From positions 1 to 36,377 of the forward strand of contig CAISJJ010000357.1 of assembly GCA_903885595.1 (NCBI GenBank): DNA of 36,377 nt, in the 5' to 3' direction. Position numbers and translations under genes: made by a program. Below, piece after piece: positions 1 through 32,103 of this stretch. Origin of the DNA: an uncultured Bacteroidales bacterium (GTDB taxonomy: Bacteria > Bacteroidota > Bacteroidia > Bacteroidales > FEN-979). A model generated the notes under the pieces. The model saw only the letters and a program-made list of their open reading frames with translations. It was not told the origin of the DNA and ran no database searches. Position 1 is the first letter of the stretch. Every line of letters begins with the position of its first letter.

Positions 1-3000
1 CCTTGAAATTGAGTCTGATGCCATTCCGGGGTTGATGACTCGAAAACCCTTTTCCCGACTGCAATTGCTGTTTTTTCTCTGCTTTTGTCTTTTCCCAGTT
101 TGCTGCCATGCCAACCACTCCCCACTGACCCCAGTTGATGGACATGGCTCCGTCGCCAACCAGTCGTTTCCTGTATTGTGCAAAGGAATCCATGAAGGAG
201 TTGCCCCCCGTGTAATCGATGCGGGCTGCTTCACCAAAAATGGCGGAAACCGAGGAAAAAAGGAAGAAGAAATCGAGTTTTCTCTCCCTGAAGATGTCGT
301 GGAGGATCAAGGTCCCGTGTAGTTTGGATTTGATGACCAGGTCGGCATGTTCCTTATCTTTCAGGGCAATGACCCCGGCGCCGGGCATCCCAGCCGAATG
401 CAGCACACCCCTCACAGGTCCGTGGACTTTTTCAACCTCGGCAACCAGGGCCCGGGTCCCTTCAAGGTCGGAGGCATCGAGGCAACCTGTGATGACTTTC
501 GAACCCAGCGATTCCAGCTCCAGAAGGTTGATGATCTTTAAAGTAGTCGTGTCTTCGGAACCGGATTCGGCGATCTTTTTCCACTCGCTGCGGGGTGGCA
601 GGGGCGAGCGGTGTGTAAGCACGAGGGTGCATTTCACCGTCTGTGCAATGTGCCTTGCCAGTTCCATGCCGAGTCCGCTGACACCACCGGTGACCAGGTA
701 AACGCCGTTTTCGGCCAGGATCATCGCGGAGCCCGCCGGTGAAGAAGGCGAAAACCGGGTGTAATCTTCGGTCCAGCGGAAGCCGTGACGGTAGGCGATG
801 ACTGTCTCGTCGGCAGGCAGTGTGCATTCTGCGATCACGGCTTTTGCTAGGCTTTCCGCAGTTTCGGCGCCGGATGCGGCAGGCATGTCGGCGAGCCTTG
901 ATATGATGCCGGGATGTTCCTGCCCGATGACCCTGGCAGGGCCGGCAGCAAGCGCCTTCTCCGGGGCAAGGACATCCTCGCCGGTGACATCGTACAAATG
1001 ACTGACCACAAACAGGAGGAAGACATCTTTGATAAATCCTTCGCTGATCAGCGCCTGCTCGAGGTACATGGGGCCGTAGAAATGGTCGCAGGCCAGCTGT
1101 TCTGCAAGCCGGGGATCCAGGTGATCCCGGTCGGGGGGCTGGCCGTAGTTCCATGCATGAACAACATGGGAAGGATCAAGCTTCTCCGATTTGAGTTGTG
1201 CGATTAGTTTGAGGTAATGTTCTTTTACTGCCGGATCAATGGTGAACCGGTTATCCTTTCTTTCAAAATCCCTGCCCGGGGTCACGAAAAAACAGCGCCT
1301 GCCTTCCGCGGTGAGCTGTTTCGCCACCTCTGCACACAATCCTTCATGATCCTCAAAAAGGAGCCAGCATGCGTTCTCCTCATCTTTTGCCGGATCAGCC
1401 ATGCCATTGGTAGGGATGAGCTGCGGCGGAGGGGTCCTCTTCCACCCGGGAATGTAGAACCATTGCCCCGGGTCGGGTTTTTTCTTGTTCTCGGCCTTGG
1501 ACTTGGCGCCCTCCTTACGGGTGAAATCGATCATGTATGGTTTTCGCTCGAAGGGATAGACCGGGTAGGAGACCAGGTTGCCTTTTCCCCCGTCGAACAG
1601 TTCCCAGCTTATGGGACCTCCCGAAGCCCAGACTTGTCCGATTGCACCATAATGGAAAAACAGGGCATCGGCTTTGGTGTCGATGGCCGGAATGGTGCTC
1701 ACCACCGCATGTTCAGTCTCTTTTGCCAGCTGGCGCTTGACGGCCGATTCCAACGACTGGCCGGGACCCGATTCAATGAATACGGCCGGAGGGCCATCCA
1801 TGCATAATTTTGCCGCATCTGCGAAGCGAACCGTTTTCCGCACATGTTTCACCCAGAAATCGGGGTCGGTCGACTGCTCCGGACCCATCCACTGCCCGGT
1901 TACGGTTGATGCGATCGGTATGGCAGGGGCAGAGAGTTTCACCTGGCTGAAGAAGGTGGCGAAAGCGGGCAGCGCCGGCTCCATCATGGCCGAGTGGAAT
2001 GCATGCGAGGTGGGGATCTTCTTGTTGAAGGTCTTGCTCTTGTTGAGTTCAGCGGCAAAATTGTCGATGAGGTCAGTCGGGCCTGACACAACGCAAAGAC
2101 CCGGGCTGTTCACCACGGCGACCTCCAGTCCCGCCGGGAGCATCGGGTTCAGCTGTTCTTCGGTGAGGAGCACTGCAAGCATCGCGCCGCCCGGAAGATC
2201 CTGGATCAGCCTTCCCCTCCTGGCAACGGCTTTCAGCGCATCATGAAGGGAAAAAACACCTGAAATGGTGGCGGCTACATATTCCCCCACACTGTGACCA
2301 ATGAGCATGTCGGGCTTTATGCCAAGCGACATGAGCAGTTTTGCCTGGGCATAGCTGACCATAAACAGGGCCGGCTGGGTGATCCAGGTCTCGTTGATTC
2401 GTATCGCGGCCTCCTCTTCACCGTGGGCCGACGGGAAAAGCACCGTGCGGATGTCAAAGCCGAGCTCGGGTTTGAGAATCTCAGCACACGTGTCGATGGT
2501 CTCTTTGAAAACCTGCTGCGACTCATAGAGCGGCAATCCCATCCGGATAAACTGGTTTCCCTGCCCTGGAAACATGAAAACAACAGGTTTACGGCTGTCG
2601 TTTTTAATGGCGGTGGATGTACGGTTGCCAATTTGGGATAACAGCTCTTCCCGGTTCCTGAACGGGATGGCGGCACGGTTCAGAAAATGACGCCGGCCGT
2701 AACGTGCGGTGAATGCAATGGAATGCAGATCGGCTGAAGGGTTTGATTCCAGGAACTCTTTCAACTCTTTTTGGGCTGAAGTGACGGCATTGGGGGTGCG
2801 TCCCGAGACCAGGAGCAGATCGCAGGGCAGGTTGCCTCTTAGCTCCTCTCTTGGCGGGGCCTCTTCAAGGATCACACAGGCGTTGGTTCCGCCCACACCG
2901 AAGGCGTTTACCAGGGCCCTAAGCGGAGTGCCGTTTACACGTTCCCATTCCCTAAGTTGTGTGTTAACGAAGAAGGGGCTGTTGGGAAAATCTATCTTGG

Positions 3001-4171
3001 GGTTCGGTTCATTGAAATGGAGGCTTGCCGGTAACTTGCGGTGTTTCAGGCAGAGGGCTGTCTTGATCAGGCTGGCGGCTCCCGAGGCGATGTCGGTGTG
3101 CCCGATGTTACTCTTTACCGAACCGATGGCGCAATATTGTTTCAAGTCAGTATGCTGCCGGAAGGTCTCCGACAGTGAAGCGACTTCAATGGGATCGCCG
3201 ATGGGCGTGGCGGTGCCGTGTGCTTCTACATAAGAGATCGTATCGGCAGAGATCTCCGATAGCGCCAGCGCCTCGGTAATGACCTCCACCTGCCCTTCAA
3301 CCGAGGGAGCGGTGAAGCCCACTTTCTTGTTGCCGTCATTGTTGATCGCCCCGCCAAGGATCACAGCATAGATGTTGTTGCGATCCCTCACGGCATCTTC
3401 CAGCCTCTTCAGGATCAACACGCCGCAGCCCCGCGAGAAAACGGTTCCGTTGGCTTCCTTGTCGAAGGTCCTGCAATGTCCATCGGCCGATTCCATCCCC
3501 CCGGCCTGGTAAAGATAGCCATGGCGCTCAGGTAGTTCAATGGTTGACCCACCGGCAATGATGAGATCGCTCTGGTAACTGACCAGACTGTTTATACCGG
3601 TAACGATGGCGACCAGTGAAGTGGAACAGGCGCATTGCACGTTCACGCTGGGACCGGTAAGATTCAGTTTGTACGACACCCGGGTAGTGACATAATCCTT
3701 GTCGTTGCTGGTTACGATTGAGGCCCCGCTGGCATTCTTCCTGACCCACGGGTTTTCCATGGTCTCCACGAGGTGGAGCGGGGTCCCGGTGCCCCCGAAA
3801 ACGCCGATTCTTTCCCTGGTTTTCTGAGGATCGACACCCGCATCCTCAAGGGCATGCCACGAACATTCAAGGAAAACCCGCTGCTGGGGATCCATAAGCT
3901 CGGCTTCGCGTGGTGTATATCCGAAAAATTCAGCATCGAAATACTCCGCTCCCCCGATGATTCCACGGTTTCTTATATAATTCGGCTGATGGAATACTTC
4001 AGGATCCACCCCGGAGGCAATGAGCTCTTCGTCTGAAAAGGTGTTCAGGGTCTCAAGTCCGTCAACAAGGTTTTGCCAGTATTCGCGTATGTTCTTTGCC
4101 CCGGGCAGGCGGCAGGCCATGCCTATAATGGCGACTTTGCCTTCCATATTCTGTGATCCGTTTGTGTTCAT
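1..4171 (-). CDS. Type I polyketide synthase, KS-AT-KR... (3' end beyond window)
   Basis: The frame is open from the ATG at 4171 to the left edge (1390 codons), so the C-terminus is missing. The KS domain (about residues 10-435) has the active-site Cys182 in CACSTS, His318 in EAHGTATPIGDP and His358 in NIGHTD, with normal spacing. The AT domain (about 530-830) has FPGQGNQ, the nucleophile Ser627 in GHSVGEY and an HAFHS motif, which in this family points to malonyl-CoA. The KR domain (about 1150 to the edge) has TGGVSGLG from residue 1161 and a catalytic Tyr1320 with the following Asn four residues on. It lacks the LDD motif of B-type KRs. An ACP and any release domain must lie off-window. It starts 11 bp after the NRPS stop, so it should extend the NRPS-bound chain by one ketide unit and reduce the beta-keto group. 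A second in-frame ATG lies at codon 9. KS/AT/KR identity is firm; the product is unknown. Confidence 0.95.
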   Translation of the reverse strand, partial: MNTNGSQNMEGKVAIIGMACRLPGAKNIREYWQNLVDGLETLNTFSDEELIASGVDPEVFHQPNYIRNRGIIGGAEYFDAEFFGYTPREAELMDPQQRVFLECSWHALEDAGVDPQKTRERIGVFGGTGTPLHLVETMENPWVRKNASGASIVTSNDKDYVTTRVSYKLNLTGPSVNVQCACSTSLVAIVTGINSLVSYQSDLIIAGGSTIELPERHGYLYQAGGMESADGHCRTFDKEANGTVFSRGCGVLILKRLEDAVRDRNNIYAVILGGAINNDGNKKVGFTAPSVEGQVEVITEALALSEISADTISYVEAHGTATPIGDPIEVASLSETFRQHTDLKQYCAIGSVKSNIGHTDIASGAASLIKTALCLKHRKLPASLHFNEPNPKIDFPNSPFFVNTQLREWERVNGTPLRALVNAFGVGGTNACVILEEAPPREELRGNLPCDLLLVSGRTPNAVTSAQKELKEFLESNPSADLHSIAFTARYGRRHFLNRAAIPFRNREELLSQIGNRTSTAIKNDSRKPVVFMFPGQGNQFIRMGLPLYESQQVFKETIDTCAEILKPELGFDIRTVLFPSAHGEEEAAIRINETWITQPALFMVSYAQAKLLMSLGIKPDMLIGHSVGEYVAATISGVFSLHDALKAVARRGRLIQDLPGGAMLAVLLTEEQLNPMLPAGLEVAVVNSPGLCVVSGPTDLIDNFAAELNKSKTFNKKIPTSHAFHSAMMEPALPAFATFFSQVKLSAPAIPIASTVTGQWMGPEQSTDPDFWVKHVRKTVRFADAAKLCMDGPPAVFIESGPGQSLESAVKRQLAKETEHAVVSTIPAIDTKADALFFHYGAIGQVWASGGPISWELFDGGKGNLVSYPVYPFERKPYMIDFTRKEGAKSKAENKKKPDPGQWFYIPGWKRTPPPQLIPTNGMADPAKDEENACWLLFEDHEGLCAEVAKQLTAEGRRCFFVTPGRDFERKDNRFTIDPAVKEHYLKLIAQLKSEKLDPSHVVHAWNYGQPPDRDHLDPRLAEQLACDHFYGPMYLEQALISEGFIKDVFLLFVVSHLYDVTGEDVLAPEKALAAGPARVIGQEHPGIISRLADMPAASGAETAESLAKAVIAECTLPADETVIAYRHGFRWTEDYTRFSPSSPAGSAMILAENGVYLVTGGVSGLGMELARHIAQTVKCTLVLTHRSPLPPRSEWKKIAESGSEDTTTLKIINLLELESLGSKVITGCLDASDLEGTRALVAEVEKVHGPVRGVLHSAGMPGAGVIALKDKEHADLVIKSKLHGTLILHDIFRERKLDFFFLFSSVSAIFGEAARIDYTGGNSFMDSFAQYRKRLVGDGAMSINWGQWGVVGMAANWEKTKAEKKQQLQSGKGFSSHQPRNGIRLNFK

Positions 4172-4182
4172 AGCTTACAAGT

Positions 4183-7100
4183 TTATGTCAGTTTATTACC
4201 AGGAAATATACGTTTGCTGATCTGCTGCCTGATGCTTTTGTTGCGCATGGCCGCACGCCTGGTAATGTCGTTGTGGTCGTGCACTGGCTTTTCTTTGCGT
4301 AGAAAGGCTGCGAGGCTGCGGATGGTGGGATATTGGAAGAGCTCCACGATGCTCAGGGCAGCGCCCATCTTTTCTGTGGCCAGGTCTTTCATCCTGACCA
4401 GCAGCAAGCTGTGCCCGCCAACTTCGAAAAAGTTGTCATCTATGGTGAAAGCCTCATGCCCGAGCAACTCTTTCCATATCGATTTGATTTGTAGTTCGGT
4501 TTCGTTGAGCTGCGATGACACGGGGGGTGGAATGGTATGCAGGGCGGGCCTGAGACTCATAAGGGCTTTGCGGTCGGTTTTGCCGTTTGGCAAGGTCGGA
4601 ATGGCCGGCGCTGTAAGGAAATGACCGGGTATCATGTACGAGGGCAGGTGCAGTCGCAGAAATTCCCTTAGTTCAGCCTCCCTGACCGATGCCCCTGGCT
4701 CCGGCACCATAAAGGCGGTCAGCCTGATGTCATCATCGCCGTGTTCATGGGCATCAACAATAACCCTCCTCACCCCCGGGAAGCGCAATATGGTCGCTTC
4801 TACCTCCCCCAGTTCGATCCTGAACCCCCTCACCTTGACCTGGTGGTCGGTTCGCCCCAGGAACTCAACCGAACCGTCGGACAGGAACCTGCATAGATCG
4901 CCTACCCTGTATATTCTCGCTCCCGGCTTAGCTGAGAAAGGATCGGGCAAAAACCTTGAGGCTGTCTGTGCCTCATCCCCGAAATAGCCTTCGGAGAGGA
5001 CCATGCCACCAACGTAGGCTTCCCCGGGCACACCGATGGGCACAGGCTTCATTCCTTCATCAAGTATGTAAAGGGCGGCGTTGAAAATGGGTCGGCCAAT
5101 GGGAACGGTTCTCATCGGGCTATTGCGCACGCATCTCCAGCCAGCCATGTAGACAGTGGCTTCAGTAGGCCCGTAAAGATTGATGAGATCTGCCCCCGAC
5201 TGGCTGAAGATCTGGTCCTGTAAAGTTTTAGAGAGCCTCTCTCCCCCTGAGATGATTGTTTTAAGTGATTTTATTCGTGAAGGCACCCCGGAGTCACAGA
5301 GGGCCTTCAGCCCTGAAGGAACGAATTGTATCGTGTTCACCTCCATTTCACGGATGATGGTTTCGACCTTTTCGGGTGCCTGCAACTCGCTCCGCTTCTC
5401 AAGTACCACGCTGGCCCCTCTCGTCAGCGGGGTGAAAAGCTCAAACAGGGATATGTCAAAATTGATGGAGGTGGTTGAAAGGAATGTGTCTGATACAGTT
5501 ACTGATAACTCCGAACCTATCCATACCAGGAAATTATGAAGGCTGTCGTGCCTGATCATAACACCCTTAGGATTGCCAGTCGATCCCGACGTAAATATGA
5601 TGTAGGCCAGATCGGCGGGGCCGGCGCCAAAAACGGCAGGGCCAGGGGAGGTTTCAGCGGCAAGGAGTTCGGCTGTGGTCATAACCATGCCCGGAAACTC
5701 CTCCTTCAGTGCCGGTTTGACTTCGTCTGAAACCAGGATGTTCACACCGGTTTTTTGAATGACATACCGCAGGCGTTCTTCAGGATAGTAAGGGTCAAGC
5801 GGAACATAGACACCCCCGGCGAGGAAAATGGCCAGAATGAAGATCACCATCTCCGGAGAATTTTCAAGATGGACCCCCACAGGATCCCCTTTCTGCAGAC
5901 CAAACTGCCTCAGCCTGCCGGCGATGGCGATGGCTCTTTCGCCCATTTCGGCATAGTTGTACGACGACCTTCGTGAAACAAGCGCTTTTGCCCCCGGTGT
6001 TTTCACAATCTGTGACCATACCAGTTCAGGAAGAGTCTTTTCAGGACCGGTTGGATGCAATGTGTCGTTCCAACCGTAAACCACCTTTTGGTATTCGACG
6101 GCCGGCATGAGGTTGATGGATGACAACTTGACCGATGGTTGAGATGCGGCGTGTTTGAGGATTTCAACAAAATGGCCGGCCAGCATCTCCATCGTTTCAT
6201 GGGAGTAAAGGCTCGCGGAATAGGTGAAAACGACCTCTGCTCCCGACAAGCTGCTGAAGATCTCGGTGTACAGGTCGAACTTCGAAAGTCCGGTAAATTC
6301 TTCCCTTCCTGATGCCAAGAGATCACTTCCCGCCTCAAAGGTCCAGTCCGCCTCGTGATAGGCAAACATGACCTGGAAAAAGGGATTGATGCCCGGGATC
6401 CGGTCGGCTTTCATGGCCACCCCCATGTGATTCAGCGGGAAACGTGCGTGAACAAGGCCATCCAGAATCTGTTCCCTCACGGAAGCCAGCCAACTTGAAA
6501 AGGCCATCGAAGGGTCAGGCCTGGCCCTGAAAAGCATGGTGTTCACGAAATAGCCAATGGCGCCTGAGAATTCCCGCCTGTTACGGTTGGCGACGGGCGT
6601 TCCGATGAGGAAGTCGGTTCGCCCTGAATGACGGTATAAAAGAACCGAAAAGGCAGCGAGACAGGTCATGTACATACTCGACCCGCATCGGTTGGCCAAC
6701 TGCTTCAGCCTTGCCCTGAGCATGGGATCCAGGTTCACCCGTACCTGCCCTCCCTCCTGCGAAAAGCCTACCGGTCGTGTAAAGTCGCACGGAATTTCGA
6801 AGAATGCAGGGACATCAGCGAGCCGGTGGTTCCAGTAGGCACGGTCGGCCAGGTAATCCTTTCCCGAAAGATAATCCGTTTCGTCATGGCAGAACAGTTG
6901 GTCGGAGGTATCTGGTTTCAGCAGGGGAGATGAACCCTCACAGGCCATGGCATAGAAATTTCTCAGGTCACCCATCAAAACCCCGAACGAAAGTCCGTCG
7001 AAGACAATGTGGTGAACAATCACCGCCAACAGGTGACGGTTGGTTCCCAGATTAAACAGGATGAACCTGCACAGGCGGTCGGTCGCGAGGTCGAACGGCT

Positions 7101-9528: not shown

Positions 9529-9543
9529 CGTGGGTTCGTTTAT

Positions 9544-11073: not shown

Positions 11074-11124
11074 CGGATGTTACCTTGTTGTGGGTTTACC
11101 TCCTCATTGTGTGGGTCAATAATA

Positions 11125-14052
11125 TCATGCAAGCTGCCTGCGGGTCAGTTCGGCAAAGAAACCGTTCTTCTCGACCAGCTCCTTGTAGGTTCCCTGCTCG
11201 ATGAGTTCTCCTTTGTCGAGCACGAAAATCCGGTCGGCATTAATAATGGTGCTCAGGCGGTGGGCGATCACGATCCTGGTGGCGCTCATCTTGTCAATGC
11301 TGAGACTCACGATCTGCTGTGTTTCATTGTCAAGCGCCGAAGTGGCTTCGTCGAAGATCAGTATCTTCGGGTTGCGTATGAGAGCCCGGGCAATGATGAT
11401 CCGCTGCTGCTGGCCCCCGGAAAGAATGTCGCCTCCCGGCGGAAGGATGGTGTACATCTTGTTGGGCAAACTGTCGATCTCTTGCGCACACCCGGCCATT
11501 TCGGCAGCTTTCCATGCCTCCTCCTCGGTGTACATGGACGAGCCGGTGATATTATACAGTACCGTCCCCTGCATGATCTTGGAATTCTGCAGCACGACGC
11601 CTAACTGGTCCCTCACGCTCCTGATATCCAGGCTCTTCAACTCCTTGTTGTCGAACAGGATGCTGCCCACATTATAATACTCGAATCCCAGCAGCAGCCT
11701 TATCAGGGTCGATTTGCCCGATCCCGAACTGCCTGTGAATGCCACGAACTCACCGGGGCGAATGGTAAAGGTGAGATCCTTCAGGCTCCAGTCGGGCGAT
11801 TCGGCATATTTGAAACTCAGGTTCGTCACCTCGATTCCTCCGCTGAGTTCACCCGGATCGAGCTTTTCATTCGTATCTTCGGTCTCCGCCTCAAGAATGG
11901 GCTGGAATAGCTCGTAGGTAGGTTTGATGTTGAGCAGGGGCACCGTGACCATGAAGGTCTGTATGAGGGCTCCCTGGAAACTGAGGTAGGCGCTGTTGAA
12001 AGCGACGAAGTCACCGATGCCGAACCCGGGCACCCCGGAGGTGAAAATGCTGTAAACCCTGATAAAGATCAGCATGGAGGCAAGTACCGGAAAGGTGACG
12101 GTGAAAATGCTCGCCACCATGAGCAGTGTGCGTTTCTGCCGGTAATGGTCTTTCTGCTGCGCATAGCGGTCGGCCCACAGCGCGAAGACCTTCTCCTTGC
12201 TCCCTGTCACCCTGATCTTGTTGATCCCCCTGATGGCCATCAGCAGGAATCCCGAGATCATGGCATCCATCCTTCGCATGAACACGACGTGCTTGTAAGC
12301 CAGCAGGCTGATGGTAAGCGTGAAGCCGGCCACCACCAGGCCCAGCACGAGGGCAAGGAGCGCAAGCTTGAGATCGTAGAAGAACAGCAGCCCCAGGTAG
12401 AATACCGAGAAAATACCCGAAATGATGGCCCCGAGCACTGTCGTCGACAGGGTGTCGCGAATCCGTTCAATACCCATGCTGCGTTCGGCCAGGTTCCCCG
12501 GGCTGTAATTCCTGAAAAAATCGACCTTCAGGGAGAGGATTCTGTCCCAGAGGGCCGACTGTAGCTTGTAACCCGCCTTGCCGGCCATCCGCAGCACGGC
12601 GATCGATTTGGCAAAGTTCAGCAGACCGATGGTCATCACGCAGATCACCATGATCGCGCCAATCTGCCACAACTCCCTGGTGTTGCCTCCCGGAATGACG
12701 GTGTTGAAAATGTATCCTCCCACTACAGGGATGATCAGGGCAAGCAATGCGCCGATCACCCCGATAACGAGGAAACTGATGATGTCGCGGTAGGTGAACT
12801 GGAGGGCAAACCTGATCAGGTCCTTTCCTCCCAGCTTGCCTTTGGGAAAGGGTGTGAAAAAACTGTAGGCCTTGGGATCAAGCAATTCCGTCACCTGCTC
12901 GTTGACGATCTCCTTGCGTTTGTTCTTCAGGTCGATCATCCAATATGCAGTGTTTCCCTTGGCAATCAGGGCGACCGGAGTCTGGTCCGCCTTGAGGAAC
13001 CCGAGCATCGACCCGGCGTTGTTGGTCCACCAGTGCGGCTCAAGGGTGACCTGCCGTGACCTGATATTCGAAGCCCGCAGGATGTTCCATAGGAAATCAT
13101 GTTTCCCGCTGATGCGGTTGCCCGGATCGGTGAATTCAATCAGCTCGCTTTTACCCACAAGCTGTACGATTAGAAGCAGCAGGATGTTTGGGCTTAGCGC
13201 CGTTGTTACTCCTCCCTGCTCGTCACTTCTGCCTTCGAACAGGGTGTCGGTCGATTTCCCGGTGATGATCGACTTGAAGCGTGTGATGGAGTTGAGTATC
13301 GCATTGGTCCTGAAAGAATAGGTGTCTTTTACATGGGCAAGTTCAACCCGGTTCTGATCGGCATGGAGCCTTTTGAGCACCGGGATGATCAGGTGGTTGA
13401 ATCCATGCAGCGACGGCAGAAAGTCAGGTCTGGCAATGGCTTGCGCGGTTGTAAAAACCTTTTTGGATAGTGCAGCGCCGGGCTTCATCCAGAGGTTCGA
13501 AGTCATTGGAAGGAGTGGCGGGCATCCCGTGCCGGGATCCGCGAAATTGAAATAAAGGGGTTTAAGCCCTGTCGATTCGATCCAGATTACCTCCGATGGT
13601 CCTGCGGCGCTGTAGCATTTCGCTGGGTCGGGCATGAACTGCGGCATGGCCGAGATCCCATTGAGCAGGGGCAGGGTGCCGAAGTTGTTCAACCCGGCCG
13701 AAAGATTCAGCATCCATTGATCGGTAAGCCTGGCGGCATCGCCGGGATTTTCGGAGAAAAAGCGGGCAAGTCCTGGTTCATCGATCAGCCCGATGGTACA
13801 GGGGCTGAGCGCGCTGACGACCAGTGAGAATGCGTCGTTCGGGCTGAACGACGGAATAAGGAAAGGGGCTGTAAACCGTAACAGGAAAAGCCTGCGTCCG
13901 GGCCCGGAGGGAAGCTTCTCGACATAAAACAGATCGGCTTCACCCGATTCAAGATAGAATGCCCTCGGTTTGTCGCTCAAAAGGGGCAGGACCTTGTTGC
14001 CGGGCAACTGGATGGCCTGCTGGTAATACGATGAAATCGGCTGTTTGTCCAT
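11125..14052 (-). CDS. NHLM-type ABC exporter, long N-terminal extension, no peptidase
   Basis: In this 975-residue protein, the first 400 or so residues are a soluble extension. It begins with a cyclic-nucleotide-binding-like beta-rich segment (residues about 15-110) and later has a region shared with the ATP-binding subunit of NHLM bacteriocin export systems. A six-helix ABC exporter membrane domain lies at about 420-700. The ATPase domain follows, with Walker A GSSGSGKST near 770, signature LSGGQQQR near 875, Walker B ILIFDEATSALD and H-loop IVIAHRLSTI, all intact. The ATG follows the stop of the C39-like ABC gene by one base (TGACATG), which suggests translational coupling and a heterodimer or paired function. 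The family usually accompanies RiPP clusters with nitrile-hydratase-type leaders, but no such precursor is visible here. Exporter identity is firm; the NHLM assignment rests on the N-terminal layout and on gene pairing. Confidence 0.88.
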   Translation of the reverse strand: MDKQPISSYYQQAIQLPGNKVLPLLSDKPRAFYLESGEADLFYVEKLPSGPGRRLFLLRFTAPFLIPSFSPNDAFSLVVSALSPCTIGLIDEPGLARFFSENPGDAARLTDQWMLNLSAGLNNFGTLPLLNGISAMPQFMPDPAKCYSAAGPSEVIWIESTGLKPLYFNFADPGTGCPPLLPMTSNLWMKPGAALSKKVFTTAQAIARPDFLPSLHGFNHLIIPVLKRLHADQNRVELAHVKDTYSFRTNAILNSITRFKSIITGKSTDTLFEGRSDEQGGVTTALSPNILLLLIVQLVGKSELIEFTDPGNRISGKHDFLWNILRASNIRSRQVTLEPHWWTNNAGSMLGFLKADQTPVALIAKGNTAYWMIDLKNKRKEIVNEQVTELLDPKAYSFFTPFPKGKLGGKDLIRFALQFTYRDIISFLVIGVIGALLALIIPVVGGYIFNTVIPGGNTRELWQIGAIMVICVMTIGLLNFAKSIAVLRMAGKAGYKLQSALWDRILSLKVDFFRNYSPGNLAERSMGIERIRDTLSTTVLGAIISGIFSVFYLGLLFFYDLKLALLALVLGLVVAGFTLTISLLAYKHVVFMRRMDAMISGFLLMAIRGINKIRVTGSKEKVFALWADRYAQQKDHYRQKRTLLMVASIFTVTFPVLASMLIFIRVYSIFTSGVPGFGIGDFVAFNSAYLSFQGALIQTFMVTVPLLNIKPTYELFQPILEAETEDTNEKLDPGELSGGIEVTNLSFKYAESPDWSLKDLTFTIRPGEFVAFTGSSGSGKSTLIRLLLGFEYYNVGSILFDNKELKSLDIRSVRDQLGVVLQNSKIMQGTVLYNITGSSMYTEEEAWKAAEMAGCAQEIDSLPNKMYTILPPGGDILSGGQQQRIIIARALIRNPKILIFDEATSALDNETQQIVSLSIDKMSATRIVIAHRLSTIINADRIFVLDKGELIEQGTYKELVEKNGFFAELTRRQLA

Positions 14053-14053
14053 G

Positions 14054-16228
14054 TCAGTTGAGATTTACCAGTTTATAATAAATTCCCTGCTGATCCCGGA
14101 TCATCTCATCGTGTGTGCCGCGCTGGACGACTTTCCCCCGCTCTAAAACGATGATCTCGTCACAGTCCCTGATGGTACTCAGCCGGTGGGCAATGATCAG
14201 GGTAGTGCATCCCCTGCGCCGGATATTGTTGTCGATGGTTTTTTCCGTGTTCGCGTCGAGGGCGCTGGTGGCCTCATCCATGACCAGGATGGTCGGGTTG
14301 ACTACCAGGGCCCGGGCGATCTCGATGCGTTGCCGCTGACCGCCGCTGAGGTTGCTGCCGGCGTTGATGAGGAGACCGTTGTATCCTCCGGGTCGTGACG
14401 AGATGACGTCGTGTATGCAGGCATCCCGGGTGGACTGAATAATGTCGGGGGTCTGGATGGTGTTGTTCCACATGGTGATGTTTTCATTAACAGTGCCGCG
14501 GAAAAGGAAGATCTCCTGGTCGACCAGCGAGATGGAGTTCCTGATCACATCCTGCGCATAGGCGGTCCTCGGTTTCCCATCGAAAAGGATATCACCTTCC
14601 CAGGGGTGGTAAAGACCTGCAACAAGCTTGGCCAGGGTCGATTTGCCCGAACCCGAACCGCCCACCAGCGCGACCCGCTTTCCGGGCTCAACATGCAGGG
14701 AGAAATCCGAGATGAGGGGATCCGCGAAACGGTCGTATCCAAATGTCACATTTTTGAAGTCCAGGTACCCGTGAAGCTTTGAATCGTCCGGCAGCAGTAC
14801 AGTAGGATCATCGCTGACCTCACCTGAAAAATAGATGTCTTCGCGGGTCGAAAGGGCATCCTGGATGGTGTTGAGGTTGCTTTTCGCGACCTGGAGGTCG
14901 CTGCCCATCGACACCACCGACTTGACCGGGCCGGTGAAATTGGTCATCAGGCTCTGGAAGGCGATAAAGATACCGATGGTCATATCGCCATAGATGACCA
15001 GCAGGCCCCCCAGTGTGAGCAGGATGATGTTGTTGAGGTTCGACAGGAAATCGGGGAGGGCGTCAAGCAGGTTCGAGGTAACATTCAGTTTCTGGTCGTA
15101 GATGACCGCATTGGAGAGGCTTCCCGACCACAGGCCGTAAAAATCATTCTCGGAACCGGTCGCCTTGATGGTTTCAATCTGCTCAAGCCCGACGCCTGCG
15201 GTGCTGAAGGTACGCTGGTTCCGCTCGAAAAGCAGCTGGTTCAGCGTTGAACGCTTTTCCGAAATGATCCGCAGCACCAAAAGGTTCACCAGGATCACCG
15301 AGACCCCGATGACCGTCAGAAGCAGGTTGTACTGGATCATGACCACGGCGTAGAGGATCACTGTGATCATGTTTGAAATCGTCGAGGTAAGCTGGGTGGA
15401 AAGTAGCGATGCCAGGTCGTCGTTCAGCTGGACTCGTTTGAAGATCTCACCGGGCTGCCGGTTCATGAAGAACCTGATGGGCAGTTTCAGGATGTGAAGG
15501 AGCAGTTTCGATGATTCGACGATGGCCAGGCGTAACTCTATTTTGACAAGGATTTTCTGTTGCAGGAAGGTCAGTATGCCATTGAAGAGGAAAAGCCCGG
15601 CAATGAGCAGCAGCATGGGCCTGAAATACCGGGGCTGGTTAAGGTCGATAATGTCATCGAAGAAAAGTTTGTTCAATCCTGCCAGTATCACGGCCGGGAT
15701 GACGAGGATCGCTCCACAGATAAGCACATATATCAGGTCGAACCGGCTGTTGCTGATCCGGCCCCATATCTTGTCGAAAAAACCGAATTCATGCTTGTCG
15801 GGTTTGAAGGCGGCGCCGGGCTTAAGTGTCAGCAGCTTGCCGTCGAAAATCTGCTCCAGATCGGCTGCCCCCAGTTTTTTCTGCCCTTCATGGGTGTCGT
15901 TGAGCAGGTAAAATTCACCTGTGTAACCTGTCAGCACACCGAAGTATCCCCCCTGTATGCCGATGATGGCAGGCATGGGAACGGTCTTCAACGAATTGAC
16001 GTCGATAGTCTTGACATCAGCTTCGAAATCGTGAGCCCGGGCCACCTTCATCAGGCGTTCGGCAGGAATTTTGGAATTGTCGGAAACACCGCATTCCTGG
16101 TTGAGCCCGTCCTTCGCAGGCCAGCAATGGTAATAGGAGAATACCATGCTCAATGCCACCGGGCCGGATTCGTTTTCCCCGATCTGAAGCATGACCGGAA
16201 CCTTTTTTTTCACATGATCGTTGCCCAT
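14054..16228 (-). CDS. ABC exporter with degenerate C39-like peptidase domain
   Basis: The 724-residue protein has an N-terminal C39-peptidase-like domain (about 1-140), a membrane domain (about 160-440) and an ATPase domain. Walker A is GGSGSGKST near 520, the signature is LSGGQRQR near 625, and Walker B is ILVMDEATSALD. In active C39 domains the catalytic residue is the Cys of a Q-x4-E-C-G-type motif. Here the aligned segment is QIGENESGP, with Ser21 at that place. The usual catalytic His region (NHFVV) reads GYFGVL with no His, while the following LND is kept. The domain should therefore bind cargo or a leader rather than cut it, like the non-catalytic domains of some type I exporters. Its overall architecture fits the peptidase/ATP-binding subunit of NHLM bacteriocin systems. 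It lies 29 bp downstream of the HlyD gene and is coupled to the next ABC gene. Confidence 0.9.
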   Translation of the reverse strand: MGNDHVKKKVPVMLQIGENESGPVALSMVFSYYHCWPAKDGLNQECGVSDNSKIPAERLMKVARAHDFEADVKTIDVNSLKTVPMPAIIGIQGGYFGVLTGYTGEFYLLNDTHEGQKKLGAADLEQIFDGKLLTLKPGAAFKPDKHEFGFFDKIWGRISNSRFDLIYVLICGAILVIPAVILAGLNKLFFDDIIDLNQPRYFRPMLLLIAGLFLFNGILTFLQQKILVKIELRLAIVESSKLLLHILKLPIRFFMNRQPGEIFKRVQLNDDLASLLSTQLTSTISNMITVILYAVVMIQYNLLLTVIGVSVILVNLLVLRIISEKRSTLNQLLFERNQRTFSTAGVGLEQIETIKATGSENDFYGLWSGSLSNAVIYDQKLNVTSNLLDALPDFLSNLNNIILLTLGGLLVIYGDMTIGIFIAFQSLMTNFTGPVKSVVSMGSDLQVAKSNLNTIQDALSTREDIYFSGEVSDDPTVLLPDDSKLHGYLDFKNVTFGYDRFADPLISDFSLHVEPGKRVALVGGSGSGKSTLAKLVAGLYHPWEGDILFDGKPRTAYAQDVIRNSISLVDQEIFLFRGTVNENITMWNNTIQTPDIIQSTRDACIHDVISSRPGGYNGLLINAGSNLSGGQRQRIEIARALVVNPTILVMDEATSALDANTEKTIDNNIRRRGCTTLIIAHRLSTIRDCDEIIVLERGKVVQRGTHDEMIRDQQGIYYKLVNLN

Positions 16229-16257
16229 AACAAGATCTCGATTGGTTGTTCAGGTTA

Positions 16258-17508
16258 TTACTCGAAATAGGATTTCAGTACGGGGATGATATAGTCGATG
16301 GGCGGTTTCTGCCTTACAAGTACCGAGGCGTGGCAAAGCGTGCCCGTATTGATGGTGTAGGGAGGCCCCTTTTTGTTCGACCACATGAAGCCGCTTTTTG
16401 TGGAAGGGTCGGGGAGTAGGAAGATTTTAACCCGGTAAGTCGGGCCCTGCTGCTGGATAAGCGCCACCAGGTCGGGATTATTCAGCTCGTCGATGATTGA
16501 ATTGGTGTTGGAAACAAAATGGTTCACCTCCACCACCTCTCCCATTAGCCAGCCGTAGAGGTTATGGTTTACGGTGAAGGGCTCGATCATGACCTCCATC
16601 CCGGGCTCCACCACGGCATTTGAATTGAAGGGGATGAACAGGTCGAGGAGGTGGTTTTTCTGGTTGTCAATGTCTTCCACTACCATCATCCGGGTGCCGG
16701 CGTTCACAAAGTCGCCGCTGCTTACCGATTTGTCTACGATGATCCCGTTGACCGGGCTCCTGATGATGGTCTGCCGGTCATAGTCATCCTGCAGATCCTG
16801 GATTTTTTTCTTCAGGATCTGGATCTGCCCCCGGTAATCTTCCTGCTTGTATACGCGGTCGTAATCCCACGATTGCTGGTCGAGCTGGTTGGTCTTCACA
16901 GACTGCTCGGTCTGGGTGCGCTTGTTGCGGGTGTCGGCGAGCTGGTTTTTTGCATCCATGTAGTTTTCTCGTGTAGCAAGGCCTTTGTCCCACAGATCCT
17001 GCTGCTGGTTCATCTTCAGTTCGAGAAAGGCGATCTGGTCCTCCAGCTGGGCAAGTTCCTTTTTTAGCCTCACCTCTTCCAGGTTGTAAAACCTAATTTT
17101 GTTGGGAAAGTCGTTTTTGTCCCTGTACTGCAGCAATGAATCCTGCAACATAAGCACATCCAGCTGTGCATTCAGTTCGACCAACTGATGCCTGAGCTGA
17201 GGCTGAAGGAGATGAAGCATCACGTCCCCTGCCTTCACCTTATCGCCAAGTTCAAAATTGACCTGTTCCACCCCGCCCGGATAGAGGGCGATGATCCCGT
17301 GCAGACCCTTTCCGCTGATGATCTCCCCCAGCCCGTCGATGCGCTGCGGAATACTTCCGAAAATACCCCAGAAGATGGTGATAAGCGTCAGGAGCCCTAA
17401 TGCAGAAAGGGAAATCCAGTAACTAGGACGCGTGATCTTCAACATACGGTTCATCTCCTCGGGATTGCTTCCCGATGGCAACGATTTTGGTTTTTCCTGC
17501 TTATCCAT
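16258..17508 (-). CDS. HlyD-family membrane fusion protein (NHLM-type secretion adaptor)
   Basis: The 416-residue adaptor has a short cytoplasmic N-terminus and one transmembrane helix at about residues 31-53. A lipoyl/biotinyl-like half (GDKVKAGDVMLHL) follows, then a long coiled coil at about 125-240 rich in Lys, Gln and Glu. The second lipoyl half is the RSPVNGIIVDKSVSSGDFV segment. The N-terminal pattern, from EMNRMLKITRP through the helix to GIFGSIPQRIDGLGEI, resembles NHLM-system secretion proteins. It would bridge the two ABC proteins in the inner membrane to the TolC-type channel. The C-terminal beta-barrel region is somewhat extended. It sits in the operon between the small Pro/Thr-rich gene (77-bp gap) and the C39-like ABC gene (29-bp gap). 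Confidence 0.88.
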   Translation of the reverse strand: MDKQEKPKSLPSGSNPEEMNRMLKITRPSYWISLSALGLLTLITIFWGIFGSIPQRIDGLGEIISGKGLHGIIALYPGGVEQVNFELGDKVKAGDVMLHLLQPQLRHQLVELNAQLDVLMLQDSLLQYRDKNDFPNKIRFYNLEEVRLKKELAQLEDQIAFLELKMNQQQDLWDKGLATRENYMDAKNQLADTRNKRTQTEQSVKTNQLDQQSWDYDRVYKQEDYRGQIQILKKKIQDLQDDYDRQTIIRSPVNGIIVDKSVSSGDFVNAGTRMMVVEDIDNQKNHLLDLFIPFNSNAVVEPGMEVMIEPFTVNHNLYGWLMGEVVEVNHFVSNTNSIIDELNNPDLVALIQQQGPTYRVKIFLLPDPSTKSGFMWSNKKGPPYTINTGTLCHASVLVRQKPPIDYIIPVLKSYFE

Positions 17509-17585
17509 AATACATGATGCTGTTTAATTAAAAACCTGCAAGACGGGTCATGTGCATGACCTGACAAAATAAAAAGATGGAGGAT

Positions 17586-18059
17586 CTAACCCCTGTACTT
17601 CTTGTAGTATTTCCAGCCCTCTTCCTTAAGATGAGCCTTGCAGTCCCCGTTGGGTTCAAGGTGATGCGTGCGGTGATGTTCCATCTGCATCTCGAAAAAT
17701 TCGCTCATCATAAACTGGTCCATGCTCACATTGGGCATTTTTGTCGTTGCCTGGAAATTGGTGGTGTTCTGCATGTTGGTGGTGTTCTGCATCTTGGGGA
17801 AAGATGGCATGGGGGGCATTTTGCCTGCGGGGCCTCCTTCTCCTTTTCCTTCTCCTTCTCCTGTCGATGGCGATGAGTCGGAGGGCATTGCCGCCGATCC
17901 TCCCGGAGTTCCGGCGAGTATTGGAGTCCCGGGCGTGCTTGCAGTCGGAGGGGCGCCCGGAGTGCCGGTGAGCGACGGGGTGCCTGGTGTTGAAGCCACA
18001 ACCGGCGTTGAGGCAGTTTTGGGTGTCATCGGGGGTACTGAGTAATCTTTCTTTTCCAT
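17586..18059 (-). CDS. Small Pro/Thr/Gly-rich protein, candidate export cargo or accessory
   Basis: I do not recognise a family. From the ATG at 18059 it is 157 residues; a TTG three codons upstream (18068) is an alternative start. There is no signal peptide or membrane segment. Residues about 10-60 are a low-complexity run with two copies of an 18-residue unit starting ASTPGTP. An acidic and basic EGEGKGEGG segment follows, then Met- and Asn-rich short repeats (QNTTNMQNTTNFQATTK). The C-terminal 50 residues look folded: MDQFMMSEFFEMQMEHH, then a His-rich stretch with a single Cys, ending in a Lys/Tyr-rich GWKYYKKYRG. It lies 26 bp from the preceding membrane-protein gene and 77 bp before the HlyD adaptor. 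Its position and lack of a Sec signal make it a candidate substrate or scaffold of the exporter, which is inference only. Confidence 0.75.
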   Translation of the reverse strand: MEKKDYSVPPMTPKTASTPVVASTPGTPSLTGTPGAPPTASTPGTPILAGTPGGSAAMPSDSSPSTGEGEGKGEGGPAGKMPPMPSFPKMQNTTNMQNTTNFQATTKMPNVSMDQFMMSEFFEMQMEHHRTHHLEPNGDCKAHLKEEGWKYYKKYRG

Positions 18060-18086
18060 TTTAGTCAATTTTGAGGGTGAAACAGT

Positions 18087-18737
18087 TTATTGCGGTGATT
18101 TTTCTTCAGAAGATTTTTTTCCATGCTCCTGCAACTTCTTCACAATAAGAATGATGAAGTAAACAAAGAGCACGGTGGTCGAAGTGCCCCAGATTTGGGT
18201 GATCACTTTGATGGTATTGAAACCAGCAACGTCGTAAACTCCGATCAGCCAGATCCTGAGAATGACATCCGACAGGTCCTGGAGCGCTAAATAGGCTGTC
18301 AGCAGCATGAAATACCTGAAGAAAGGCATCTCACGGTAAAGTTTCTGTGTGTGTTCCTTCTGTACGCCGTGCAGGTAAGCGTAATCAATAAAGAAATACA
18401 TCGCCATCGGTCTTTTGATGATCATCGTGAAAAACCAGAAGAGGGTCAGGCCGATGTTGAGATAGACATTGTTCCACAGCATCTGGTGGGCTGTTTTCGA
18501 ATAGATATCCATGATGCTGCCGATGATCATGGTTGCGAGGATGAAGAGCCCGGTAACGCTGTACTGTTTCTCTCTGAAAAACGTGAAGAGCGTGTACAGG
18601 ATCCCCGGAACTGTTGAGATCAGCATGGCAGGGTAATCGCCAAGCCATTCGCGGCAGGTGTTCCAAATCAGCAGGGGTACCCCGAGGTATACGATCAGGT
18701 CGGTAGCGGTGCGGCCGTTGATTACTTTTTTAAACAT
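18087..18737 (-). CDS. VC0807-like polytopic membrane protein
   Basis: The 216-residue protein has about six hydrophobic segments. The pattern from DLIVYLGVPLLIWN, through the LISTVPGILYTLFTFFREK turn, to IIKRPMAMYFF resembles the VC0807 family of small membrane proteins, whose biochemical role is not established. It ends in a short charged tail (KKSSEEKSPQ) that is presumably cytoplasmic. It is 5 bp downstream of the delta-60 gene and 27 bp upstream of the chosen start of the small Pro/Thr-rich gene, so it is part of the same transcript. It could assist export, immunity or membrane integration of the product, but nothing in the sequence decides this. Family placement is from pattern memory and is moderately sure. 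Confidence 0.75.
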   Translation of the reverse strand: MFKKVINGRTATDLIVYLGVPLLIWNTCREWLGDYPAMLISTVPGILYTLFTFFREKQYSVTGLFILATMIIGSIMDIYSKTAHQMLWNNVYLNIGLTLFWFFTMIIKRPMAMYFFIDYAYLHGVQKEHTQKLYREMPFFRYFMLLTAYLALQDLSDVILRIWLIGVYDVAGFNTIKVITQIWGTSTTVLFVYFIILIVKKLQEHGKKSSEEKSPQ

Positions 18738-18742
18738 GGTTC

Positions 18743-20011
18743 TTACCTCCCGAAATCAGGATCCAGTGAGCCGTCGGGCATGTATCTGATGATGATGAAA
18801 TCATTGTTAAATCCGTTGTTTGAATTACCTGCAGCGACGATTTTCAGGTCTTTCTGCAGTGCGATGCAATAGGCATTCTCGTCGCCTTTCTGCACTGAGG
18901 TGATGACAAGGCCTTTTTTACCGAACGATTCATCTGCGGTCCCGCTGTTGCTGAACCTCATCAGTGCGATGTCGTTAGCGTCACCATTATCTGAACTGCC
19001 TGCCAAGATGATCTTTCCGTCGGGTTGCAGGGCCAGTGCGTATACTTTGTCATCGCCAGCCCCGACCGGGGTCAAAACGATGCCCTCTTTTCCGAAGGTC
19101 TTATCCAGCCTGCCTTCCGGAGTGAACCGTGCGACGGCAAAGTCGAAATCGTCGCCGTTGAATGAGCTTCCGGCCACGATGATCTTCCCGTCGGGCTGGA
19201 GGGCAACGCCTTTTGCCAGATCTTCGCCGTTTTGTAACGATTTGACCATAATGCCGTTAACTCCGAAGGACCGGTCAGGTTCCCCGTTGGGAAGGTACCT
19301 GGCCACCCCGAAATCTGTGTTTGCAGAACCTGCCGCAACGATCTTTCCGTCGCGTTGCAGGGTGACTGCGGCAATCCTGTCATCACCGCTGCTGATGTTG
19401 GAGATGACCATTCCGTTTTTTCCGAAAGTGCTGTCCATGGATCCGTTGTGGTTGAATCGCACCAGCGCGAAATCCTCATAGTTGCCATTGGTTGAACTCC
19501 CGGCCACGATGATCTTTCCGTCGGGCTGCAACGCCATCGAGGTGGCCACATCATCCCCTTCGCCGATGGACCTGACGATGAGACCCTTTTTACCGAAAGT
19601 GGTATCCCATTGACCATCAGACTGGTACCTGACCATCGCAAAGTAAATGGCGTTGTTGTGATACAGGCTGCCGGCCATCAGGATCTTGCCGTCGCCGAGT
19701 ACCAGCGTTGCCGAACTTCGGTCTTCTACGGTTTTATGGATGGTTTTAACAATGCCTCCGGTCCCGAATGATGTATCCAGCCTGCCTTCGGGGGTGTATT
19801 TTAACAAGGTAAAACTTGCATTACAAAAGCCGGAAACCACAATCTTCCCATCATATTGTAACGACATCGCGCTGGCGATATCGTCGGAGGTTGAAAGGGA
19901 TGTGATGACCACTCCCGGGGGAGGGACTACTGGGTCATCCGACCCGCCTGACTGGGCTGATGCGCATATCTGCAGGGTCATGAAAAAGAGCATCAATATT
20001 CCGGTTTTCAT
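18743..20011 (-). CDS. Secreted delta-60 repeat (seven-unit propeller-like) protein
   Basis: The 422-residue protein has a Sec signal peptide (MKTGILMLFFMTLQICASAQ). It then has seven repeats of about 55 residues with the delta-60 pattern LQPDGKIIVAGSS...DFALVRF...G..D.TFG..G. Seven units would fit a beta-propeller. It ends right after the seventh unit (DGSLDPDFGR) and has no T9SS sorting domain, so it is probably periplasmic or released. It is the first gene of the operon leading into the exporter and the NRPS-PKS genes. No enzymatic residues are evident. The link with the biosynthetic genes rests only on the 5-bp spacing and shared orientation. Repeat family identification is confident; function is unknown. 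Confidence 0.9.
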   Translation of the reverse strand: MKTGILMLFFMTLQICASAQSGGSDDPVVPPPGVVITSLSTSDDIASAMSLQYDGKIVVSGFCNASFTLLKYTPEGRLDTSFGTGGIVKTIHKTVEDRSSATLVLGDGKILMAGSLYHNNAIYFAMVRYQSDGQWDTTFGKKGLIVRSIGEGDDVATSMALQPDGKIIVAGSSTNGNYEDFALVRFNHNGSMDSTFGKNGMVISNISSGDDRIAAVTLQRDGKIVAAGSANTDFGVARYLPNGEPDRSFGVNGIMVKSLQNGEDLAKGVALQPDGKIIVAGSSFNGDDFDFAVARFTPEGRLDKTFGKEGIVLTPVGAGDDKVYALALQPDGKIILAGSSDNGDANDIALMRFSNSGTADESFGKKGLVITSVQKGDENAYCIALQKDLKIVAAGNSNNGFNNDFIIIRYMPDGSLDPDFGR

Positions 20012-26526: not shown

Positions 26527-26572
26527 ACTTTATTCGACTGGGATTGAATATGATCTTAGCTCATCGTAGTGC

Positions 26573-26605
26573 AAAATCCCCCGGGATAATTCTCCGGGGG
26601 ATTTT
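26573..26605. terminator. Strong bidirectional intrinsic terminator
   Basis: A perfect 12-bp stem (AAAATCCCCCGG at 26573-26584, CCGGGGGATTTT at 26594-26605) encloses a 9-base loop and is followed by another T. The A-run and T-run ends make it work both ways. It separates the MFS gene from the convergent T9SS gene ending at 26715. Confidence 0.85.
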
Positions 26606-26714
26606 TAAGGTCGCACTTTTCATTTTTAATTTTAATCATCCCGGGAAAACAGTATAAACCCGATAAAACCAGACTTGGGAAGCTTACCTGTTAATTACAT
26701 TTATAAAACTTCAT

Positions 26715-31538: not shown

Positions 31539-31888
31539 AGTTTTTTTTTAATTGTATAAGTATAAATGTATTTGGAAAAAAATCAAACCTTAATCAATTG
31601 AAAAGGCTATGATTATTTTTCATCCCACAGCGGAATTTGTTCATATTGAATAGTATCGGAAAGTGCATAAAGATGGTTATTCAAATAATTCGAATTTATT
31701 TGATTATTGTGCAAAGATGAATGGAGGAACAGAAATCTGCAATAGCCCGAACGGGTCATTTTTTTGACAATCAGATTTGGTTTTCATTGAACGACATAAC
31801 AACAACCTGCGCTCGCTAATGGACCTGCAGTTTCTGATAAATATTTTTACGTTGTTGTGTAAAGTACAGAAAATGATAATTCGTTAGT

Positions 31889-31923
31889 AATGTGAATCAG
31901 GGGTTCAATCCTTGATTCACATT
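31889..31923. other. Perfect 11-bp inverted repeat
   Basis: AATGTGAATCA (31889-31899) pairs with TGATTCACATT (31913-31923) across a 13-base loop. It directly follows the T9SS 3'-end remnant on the minus strand. No T-run follows, so it is at best a weak terminator left from a lost gene. Confidence 0.55.
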
Positions 31924-31966: not shown

Positions 31967-32103
31967 AATGTTGACAGGGTTGTTAACCAGGGGAGGAAAA
32001 CATGAGTTTTCTTTATCAGTCCGGCCCGTGGAAATATCGACAGTTCCTTTACGAACAAATATCCCCTGCAATGAAAACAGCAACTGCTCTTTGAATGTCC
32101 AAT

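Follow-up and report, generated by a model that had tools for sequence, protein, structure and literature searches.

An NHLM-type exporter with a degenerate C39 domain is linked to a hybrid NRPS-PKS cluster in uncultured Bacteroidales

The exporter encoded in the stretch of DNA analysed here (the window, 36377 bp, which is the whole of contig C357) is in our judgement likely to be an NHLM exporter that has lost leader cleavage and now serves as the dedicated exporter of one conserved hybrid NRP-PK metabolite. A 'dedicated exporter for a hybrid metabolite' was among the options raised by the first-pass annotation, and it is supported by the NRPS adjoining the exporter in 11/11 relatives, by TolC and PKS occurring in the same 12/43 family genomes, and by a peptidase that is dead in 12/12 copies, the last supplying a mechanistic reason that the annotation had lacked. 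Its run of nine same-strand genes from a delta-60 propeller protein to a PKS is confirmed by the ORF table, on the minus strand from 20011 down to 2 with gaps of 1-77 bp (5, 27, 77, 29, 1, 51, 15 and 11 bp in block order, presupposing the ATG at 18059 as the start of the small gene). The features are:

18743..20011, minus strand: delta-60 / DUF5122 beta-propeller protein, 422 aa (TIGR02608, 343.2 bits; PF17164), first gene of the run
18087..18737, minus strand: VC0807-family membrane protein, 216 aa (NF041646, 104.7 bits, cut-off 65)
17586..18059, minus strand: small Pro/Thr-rich protein, 157 aa from the ATG, core member with no family at default thresholds
17546..17561, minus strand: hairpin GGTCAT-GCAC-ATGACC between the small gene and hlyD, within the 17509-17585 gap
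16258..17508, minus strand: NHLM-type HlyD membrane-fusion protein, 416 aa (TIGR03794, 253.4 bits, above the cut-off of 156.2)
14054..16228, minus strand: ABC1, NHLM peptidase/permease/ATPase with a degenerate C39 domain, 724 aa (TIGR03796, 813.4 bits, below the cut-off of 853.3)
15809..16207, minus strand: C39-like domain of ABC1 (by alignment Cys -> Ser21, His -> Tyr95, Asp111 retained)
11125..14052, minus strand: ABC2, NHLM permease/ATPase without peptidase and with a long N-terminal extension, 975 aa (TIGR03797, 784.2 bits, above the cut-off of 709.4)
9544..11073, minus strand: TolC-family outer-membrane channel, 509 aa (PF02321, 60.7 bits)
4183..9528, minus strand: NRPS A-T-C-A-T, 1781 aa (domain scans)
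2..4171, minus strand: PKS KS-AT-KR, ended by the contig edge (domain scans)

Not all nine genes belong to the conserved block. The propeller gene, which the first-pass annotation had counted into the operon set, is not a core member, with a d60 match upstream in only 5 of 11 relatives (of the six without one, two end at a contig edge there). The gene for the VC0807 protein, predicted from its hydrophobic sequence to be an integral membrane protein, is core, being present in 10/11 relatives; in the eleventh (G021) the contig stops just before hlyD. Between hlyD and the PKS gene the gaps in relatives are at most 59 bp and hold no hairpins, and the tolC-NRPS gap, of 15 bp in the window and no more than 58 bp in relatives, contains no perfect inverted repeat of at least 6 pairs in any of these loci. 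The sequence gives no sign of the transcript end between these two genes that the first-pass annotation had named as contrary, and a single transcript is predicted to span hlyD to the PPTase gene. Consensus searches were uninformative, both for sigma-70 promoters (14 against 13.1 in shuffles) and for intrinsic terminators (23 against 22.2). A Bacteroidota promoter pattern has no match on the minus strand below 22500, and an Rfam scan of the window returned no family at gathering score.

The exporter had been described as having the NHLM layout, and this stands for HlyD and ABC2, which exceed their cut-offs in the NCBIfam models used for the trio (TIGR03794, TIGR03796 and TIGR03797), but only in part for ABC1, which falls below the cut-off even though TIGR03796 is its best family. 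The description of ABC1 as 'C39-like' likewise holds for the fold and not for the catalytic residues. Across the clade Cys is replaced by Ser in 12/12 copies and His by Tyr or Asn in 12/12, with Asp retained in 9/12. All three residues are intact at 7/7 other loci of NHLM type in the family, two of which belong to this genome, at 29/29 phylum NHLM loci examined, and at 3/3 further loci from an order search. An AF2 model of the domain (pLDDT 85.5) retrieves 6mpz as its best Foldseek match (TM 0.84-0.85), followed by PCAT1, and also the HlyB CLD 3zua; alignments, AF2 and Foldseek together thus give a C39 fold without the catalytic Cys, the mark of a CLD transporter. Since the domain has no Cys-His pair, leader cleavage has probably been lost. 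The dead-C39 exporters form one clade (100/100 support) that groups with NHLM sequences in the tree. Within it the C39 domain has diverged more rapidly than the remainder of the protein (mean identity 69.7%, against 87.5% for the TMD and 89.8% for the NBD), whereas at the 7 intact loci this domain is the best conserved of the three (C39 76.4%, TMD 69.1%, NBD 73.8%).

The PKS gene is incomplete because the window is the whole contig. The remaining assembly line lies on another contig of this genome, C268, whose start has 166/172 bases in common with the window end, and comprises DH-ACP, a separate ER, a C-A-T-TE NRPS and a PPTase. C-A-T and KS-AT-ACP modules and a release domain are present, the second half being read on C268 and in a relative (G005). 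A dehydratase-motif regular expression fitted only part of the copies, and a Pfam scan covered the G005 and C268 copies, so DH is claimed for those two alone. In the window NRPS the A1 pocket is without Asp235 in 12/12 copies and the A2 pocket is hydrophobic, with pocket positions following GrsA-PheA numbering and the tenth residue (Lys) added by the script rather than read; by the usual pocket rules, these would correspond to substrates with 'no alpha-amino contact' and 'hydrophobic'. The A3 pocket resembles Asp/Asn codes, but without the Lys at position 278.

The search for homologous operons proposed in the first-pass annotation was run, and the exporter adjoins an NRPS in the window and in every one of the 11 relatives with the exporter clade; homologous exporter operons consistently devoid of NRPS/PKS genes, the result that it had named as contrary, were not what we found. 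The PKS is on the exporter's contig in 10/11 relatives, and in G008 it is on contig C118; the cluster of G006, for one, lies complete on a single contig. The block as a whole occurs in 12/43 family genomes, and PKS, TolC (54-70% identity) and small protein are found in an identical set of 12, with 0/31 others at the presence thresholds used (1e-100, 1e-20 and 0.01, respectively). Nineteen places in the family exceed the TIGR03797 cut-off, 12 with and 7 without an NRPS. No NRPS or PKS was found near control NHLM loci in 25 neighbourhoods, 7 from the same family and 18 from other families (18 of the 29 phylum loci), nor was there an NRPS/PKS match at the one Hoeflea NHLM locus examined outside Bacteroidota. 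TolC is no hallmark of this system, as 12/18 control loci likewise have a TolC match. Distances among exporters follow those among synthases over 11 loci (r 0.62, 0/2000 shuffles), and HlyD distances track the synthase weakly (r 0.05-0.25). It is important to note that co-occurrence within one family can also arise from inheritance of a linked block.

In the mechanism we propose, a pump descended from exporters of leader-peptide RiPPs would have come to serve an A-T-C-A-T / KS-AT-KR-DH-ACP / separate ER / C-A-T-TE line primed by its own PPTase, whose product may be a short acyl-peptide with one malonyl-derived two-carbon unit, probably fully reduced. The NHLM trio, with its HlyD adaptor and pair of ABC half-transporters, would form with TolC a tripartite pump moving this metabolite out of the cell, and the C39 domain, keeping its fold and cleaving no leader, would persist in a non-catalytic role, as a gate or a surface for docking, comparable to the C39-like domain of HlyB. 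The VC0807 and small proteins are probably accessory, at the membrane.

The small protein ranges from 67 to 157 aa over 11 copies, shares a conserved C-terminal HHxxxHL...G region, and matches no family at default thresholds; a Pfam search of 10 small proteins with the E limit relaxed to 1 gave three families with one member each, which we take as chance. AF2 (pLDDT 58.6) places two C-terminal helices after a mostly low-confidence, probably disordered body, a model of insufficient quality to support a fold search. Downstream of its gene lies the hairpin, which over 11 loci has a 10-pair consensus helix with 90.9% of cells paired and 5 pairs changed on both sides; it is weak in G027, and for the window copy the fold energy reaches a z of only -1.5. 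We regard it as an attenuator-like candidate (attenuator, terminator or processing site) that may set the small gene apart from the remaining genes of the block.

These observations bear on a mixed system, in which the pump exports the uncleaved small protein and the metabolite is co-exported or leaves otherwise. Such a protein cargo would suit a protein tied to the cluster (12/12 genomes with PKS, 0/31 without), its small size and disordered body, a covarying hairpin just past its gene, an arrangement seen with precursor genes that are expressed in excess, and the handling of uncleaved protein cargo by C39-like domains in RTX systems (PMC8277102). We nevertheless consider it unlikely: ten aligned copies reveal no GG leader by eye, in one draft genome (G004) an in-frame fusion places the small protein at the end of VC0807, on its C-terminus, which is ill-suited to secreted cargo (if not an assembly error), and the correlation between small protein and C39 domain (partial r 0.49, 5/2000 shuffles) mostly disappears with a broader background, falling to a residual r of 0.27, against 0.45 for C39-VC0807 and 0.39 for small-VC0807. 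Because of this fall we do not claim co-evolution of the two. It is tempting to speculate that the dead C39 domain is instead a receptor for the small protein, which would escort the NRPS-PKS product through the NHLM pump or be joined to it, as in microcin E492; a ribosomal escort protein would then serve a nonribosomal metabolite, a scheme that we hold to be quite improbable.

It is harder still to credit that the exporter continues to serve a ribosomal peptide encoded elsewhere, its proximity to the NRPS-PKS being linkage only. The trio does match NHLM models, and the genome has 13 NHLP-leader matches, ten of them precursors above cut-off, all on contigs other than C357; a Nif11 (N11P) search gave a single sub-threshold match in the genome, none on C357. 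The earlier remark that no RiPP precursor is visible in the window thus agrees with the NHLP and Nif11 models, and short ORFs outside the window genes gave no GG-leader-like candidate by eye. Against such a cargo are the loss of catalytic Cys and His in all 12 copies, the presence of two intact NHLM exporters in the same genome, and an exporter TolC and PKS that are never apart among the 43 genomes. A pump acting mainly in self-protection or multidrug efflux, with the metabolite's main exit elsewhere, seems to us equally remote. TolC-ABC efflux in natural-product clusters often protects the producer, but protection by efflux is still export of the same product, and no second exporter gene was recognised in the conserved block by comparison with the window proteins.

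If the dedicated-exporter reading is correct, a class of exporters whose defining feature is the cleavage of leader peptides has switched to another class of cargo, and the switch is cleanly marked in the genes by a dead peptidase whose fold is retained. The ancestral type and RiPP precursors occur in the same genome, so that a single organism allows the two states to be set side by side; dead C39 domains in NHLM trios would offer a genome-mining test for non-RiPP cargo, and the locus also draws attention to an orphan small protein of these uncultured Bacteroidales and to a conserved NRP-PK metabolite that has yet to be characterised. In literature covering mostly non-subscription papers we found no work that connects exporters of the NHLM/NHLP type with NRPS or PKS. 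No such link appears in the accessible portions of PMC2887384, PMC3140520 and PMC4558948; in those of PMC8277102 the sole 'nonribosomal' passage concerns enterobactin and MacB-type export, and in those of PMC10233263 the word is confined to the title of a cited work on microcin E492.

Like the NHLM/NHLP trio of Haft et al. 2010 (PMC2887384), the exporter has adjoining HlyD, peptidase-ABC and non-peptidase ABC genes, each best matched by its own model, but it differs in an ABC1 under cut-off, the lost Cys and His, the absence of an NHLP/N11P precursor on the contig, and the NRPS-PKS linkage. It shares the C39 fold (TM 0.84-0.86) with PCAT/AMS bacteriocin transporters (PCAT1, 6v9z; leader-bound C39, 6mpz), whereas its ABC1 lacks their catalytic Cys-His pair. 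HlyB-type T1SS (3zua, 7sgr) also combine a C39 fold without nucleophile, in HlyB through replacement of Cys by Tyr (PMC8277102), with HlyD and TolC partners. HlyB, however, exports an RTX protein, and the clade described here is NHLM-like and NRPS-PKS-linked with two ABC half-transporters. The matches listed for the window genes scanned include no RTX family. With hybrid NRPS-PKS clusters the locus has in common A, C, T, KS, AT, KR, DH, ACP, TE and PPTase, and it departs from them in exporter type, a starter A domain without Asp235 (12/12), a DH that follows KR, and a separate ER. Microcin E492, in which a ribosomal peptide is coupled to a nonribosomal peptide and leaves the cell through a C39 transporter, is a precedent for ribosomal and nonribosomal parts in one exported product, and so bears on the receptor reading, although neither a gene for such attachment nor a GG leader nor an active C39 domain was recognised here.

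As the first-pass annotation had claimed, nine genes on one strand run from a delta-60 propeller to a PKS and are separated by 1 to 77 bp; open reading frames together with domain and family matches bear this out and give the minus-strand order as delta-60 propeller, VC0807-family membrane protein, small protein, HlyD, ABC1, ABC2, TolC, NRPS and PKS. The source genome is a 6.02-Mb draft, 94.5% complete and in 547 contigs, of which the window is one entire contig (C357), and the PKS is truncated by the contig end. The ends of C357 and C268, a contig of the same genome, have 166 of 172 bases in common, and the start of C268 reads as the PKS continuation. Gene order from C357 to C268, read across two separate contigs, matches that of relatives carrying these genes on a single contig. 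The continuation comprises:

C268, after the PKS junction: DH-ACP
C268: 383-aa zinc-type reductase, taken to be a separate enoyl reductase (ER)
C268: 1492-aa NRPS, C-A-T-TE
C268: ACPS-family PPTase

At the other side of the window, G+C drops from 0.50-0.56 to 0.40-0.45 over 26001-36377, a part that could be a boundary between DNAs of different origin and includes the gene for a 1607-aa DUF7619 protein ending in a T9SS sorting tail. This genome may also encode a second NRPS, as one of its contigs (L067, G000:C106; 3.9 kb) carries another partial condensation domain.

A search of 43 family genomes with TIGR03797, the ABC2 model, found 19 places above the model cut-off in 15 genomes. Twelve of these, the window and 11 relatives, share the layout VC0807, small protein, HlyD, ABC1, ABC2, TolC, NRPS, PKS, with two exceptions at contig ends: in G021 the contig starts at hlyD and the small gene sits on another contig, and in G008 it stops within the first NRPS, with the PKS on C118. 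Downstream, a 381-383-aa gene, a 1369-1414-aa NRPS and a 241-281-aa gene follow in 10 of the 11 relatives, in the stretch fetched; the Pfam scan of these last genes covered G005 and the window's own genome. The PKS (E up to 1e-100), TolC (E up to 1e-20) and small protein (E up to 0.01) are present in the identical 12 of 43 family genomes. G005 also holds a second cluster copy (L152, G005:C67), truncated at both contig ends. A pattern-led scan of an 84,980-species collection with an ABC1 alignment returned 43 loci, 11 of which, at 80-87% identity, are taken to be the same relatives; the next full-length match is Hoeflea poritis at 36%, and one partial match (L101) reaches 39%. Among 393 genomes of the order, scores above 1500 bits came only from the window's genome and G007, the next best being 694. 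Part of the co-occurrence is due to shared descent, because all relatives, draft genomes throughout, come from a single family; the case draws its strength from how these loci differ from intact NHLM ones, some of them within the same genomes.

Blastp at 1e-5 with the A, C, KS, AT and KR domains of the window finds no match in any of the seven intact family NHLM loci (16-34 kb each) or in the 18 from other families (11.5-20 kb; 18 neighbourhoods fetched of 29 sampled). In the window's genome, 13 matches to NHLP leaders, ten of them above cut-off, are spread over eleven contigs other than C357, and no Nif11-type leader exceeds its cut-off; ordinary RiPP precursors and two intact exporters are therefore present apart from the C357 exporter. 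The ten precursors lie on C210, C221, C288, C252, C51, C164, C436 and C247, and none on C27 or C152, the contigs of the two intact exporters.

The C39 domain of ABC1 marks the same contrast. ABC1 scores under its NHLM model cut-off, and in all 12 clade members the C39 motif ECG has become ESG; the catalytic His is Tyr in ten and Asn in two, and the Asp is retained in nine. Judged from these residues, the ABC1 peptidase appears dead. All three catalytic residues are intact in the seven other family NHLM loci (including those on C27 and C152), in all 29 loci examined among 395 genomes sampled from the phylum (other genomes gave 30 matches, of which the second in G428 was assigned no locus), in three of three order loci and in the Hoeflea locus. 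A further family locus, in G009, falls below the TIGR03797 cut-off with an intact motif; it looks like a different C39 transporter and was excluded from the counts. The predicted model of the window's C39 domain (pLDDT 85.5) resembles 6mpz, a leader-bound C39 peptidase (TM 0.84-0.85), and PCAT1 and, less well, the HlyB C39-like domain, so the fold is retained. Within the clade, mean pairwise identity is lowest for this domain (69.7%, versus 87.5% for the TMD and 89.8% for the NBD), and dN/dS, from pairs with TMDs >88% identical where computable, is 0.08-0.26 versus 0.02-0.09. In the seven intact loci the domain has the highest identity (76.4%, versus 69.1% and 73.8%), and in the sole pair close enough dN/dS is 0.036 versus 0.129 and 0.073. 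Constraint on the clade's C39 domain has thus weakened without disappearing. The 12 ABC1 form one clade (100/100 support) among NHLM sequences in a 57-sequence tree, in an exact position that is unsure because the stem is long.

The small protein (67-157 aa) is conserved at both ends, varies in a Pro/Thr-rich central part and matched no known family; in its predicted structure two C-terminal helices alone are modelled with confidence. In the 393-genome order sample it is confined to the two genomes carrying the cluster. Our best guess is a membrane-bound accessory, the main rival being a secreted partner that is left uncleaved. In G004 (L039:13534-14418) it is fused in frame to the VC0807 C-terminus as one 294-aa frame, and in G008, the nearest relative in the ABC1 tree, the two are separate genes. 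Co-evolution of the small protein with the C39-like domain was considered and failed against its control.

From hlyD to the PKS, gaps in the relatives are at most 59 bp (ORF-finder overlaps counted as 0) and contain no perfect inverted repeat with at least six pairs. Further upstream, covariation picks out one element in a gap that the first-pass annotation had also named:

17546-17561: hairpin, within the small-gene/hlyD gap (17509-17585)

The hairpin is present in most loci as a 10-pair helix, in which 90.9% of cells are paired (11 loci), against 42-53% when slid; five pairs are altered on both sides, matched in 3 of 500 shuffles. Single-sequence fold z-scores run from -4.7 to +0.1 in the ten loci folded (window, -1.5), and G027 is without a good stem. 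A TTGTTAAYCAGCAA-like conserved stretch follows the hairpin in many relatives. We do not claim a textbook terminator, because the T-run comes some 8-11 nt later, not directly adjacent, and the hairpin is not among the matches of a consensus terminator scan; attenuation would fit, as would RNA processing and stabilisation.

Pocket residues of the first NRPS are well conserved across its 12 copies (nine positions, placed by GrsA-PheA numbering). Its first adenylation domain reads AA(T/S)(C/S)(C/Y)SLAN, lacking the Asp that binds the alpha-amino group, and its second a hydrophobic DIxFI(G/T)(L/S)(V/I)Y; that of the second NRPS reads DLTI(V/M/I)GH(V/I)G in 10 of 11 copies and DLTIVASIS in G024. 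Both first-NRPS pockets of L152 are those of G028. All 13 copies have the KS Cys motif, the AT Ser motif and, also in the AT, HAFH, which we take to be a malonyl mark, and the two-carbon unit is probably fully reduced because KR, DH and a separate ER are present. The product scaffold looks conserved across copies, and would consist of an acid starter, a gamma-amino acid formed by extending a hydrophobic residue, and a third residue, with release by the TE. Between the propeller and VC0807 genes, G006 and G028 carry a PLP-dependent decarboxylase of the diaminopimelate/ornithine decarboxylase kind (L045:10353-11585, L051:17199-18434), which may supply a precursor; G007 has a gene of the same size.

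Over 11 loci, exporter distances are correlated with synthase distances (r 0.62; 0 of 2000 shuffles), but HlyD distances alone hardly are; HlyD and TolC, unlike HlyD and the synthases, diverge together strongly beyond background (residual r 0.80, 10 loci). We infer that the NHLM pump transports the metabolite. The literature searched yielded no paper linking NHLM exporters with NRPS-PKS clusters, and describes neither the combination, nor the NHLM clade with its apparently dead peptidase, nor the small protein; the parts are already known. NHLM exporters were defined through their link to NHLP precursors, the peptidase ABC being called 'Trans-Cleave' (PMC2887384), the same trio is described for bacteriocins in a survey of cyanobacteria (PMC3140520), and C39-like domains without the Cys are known in HlyB and other RTX exporters (PMC8277102).
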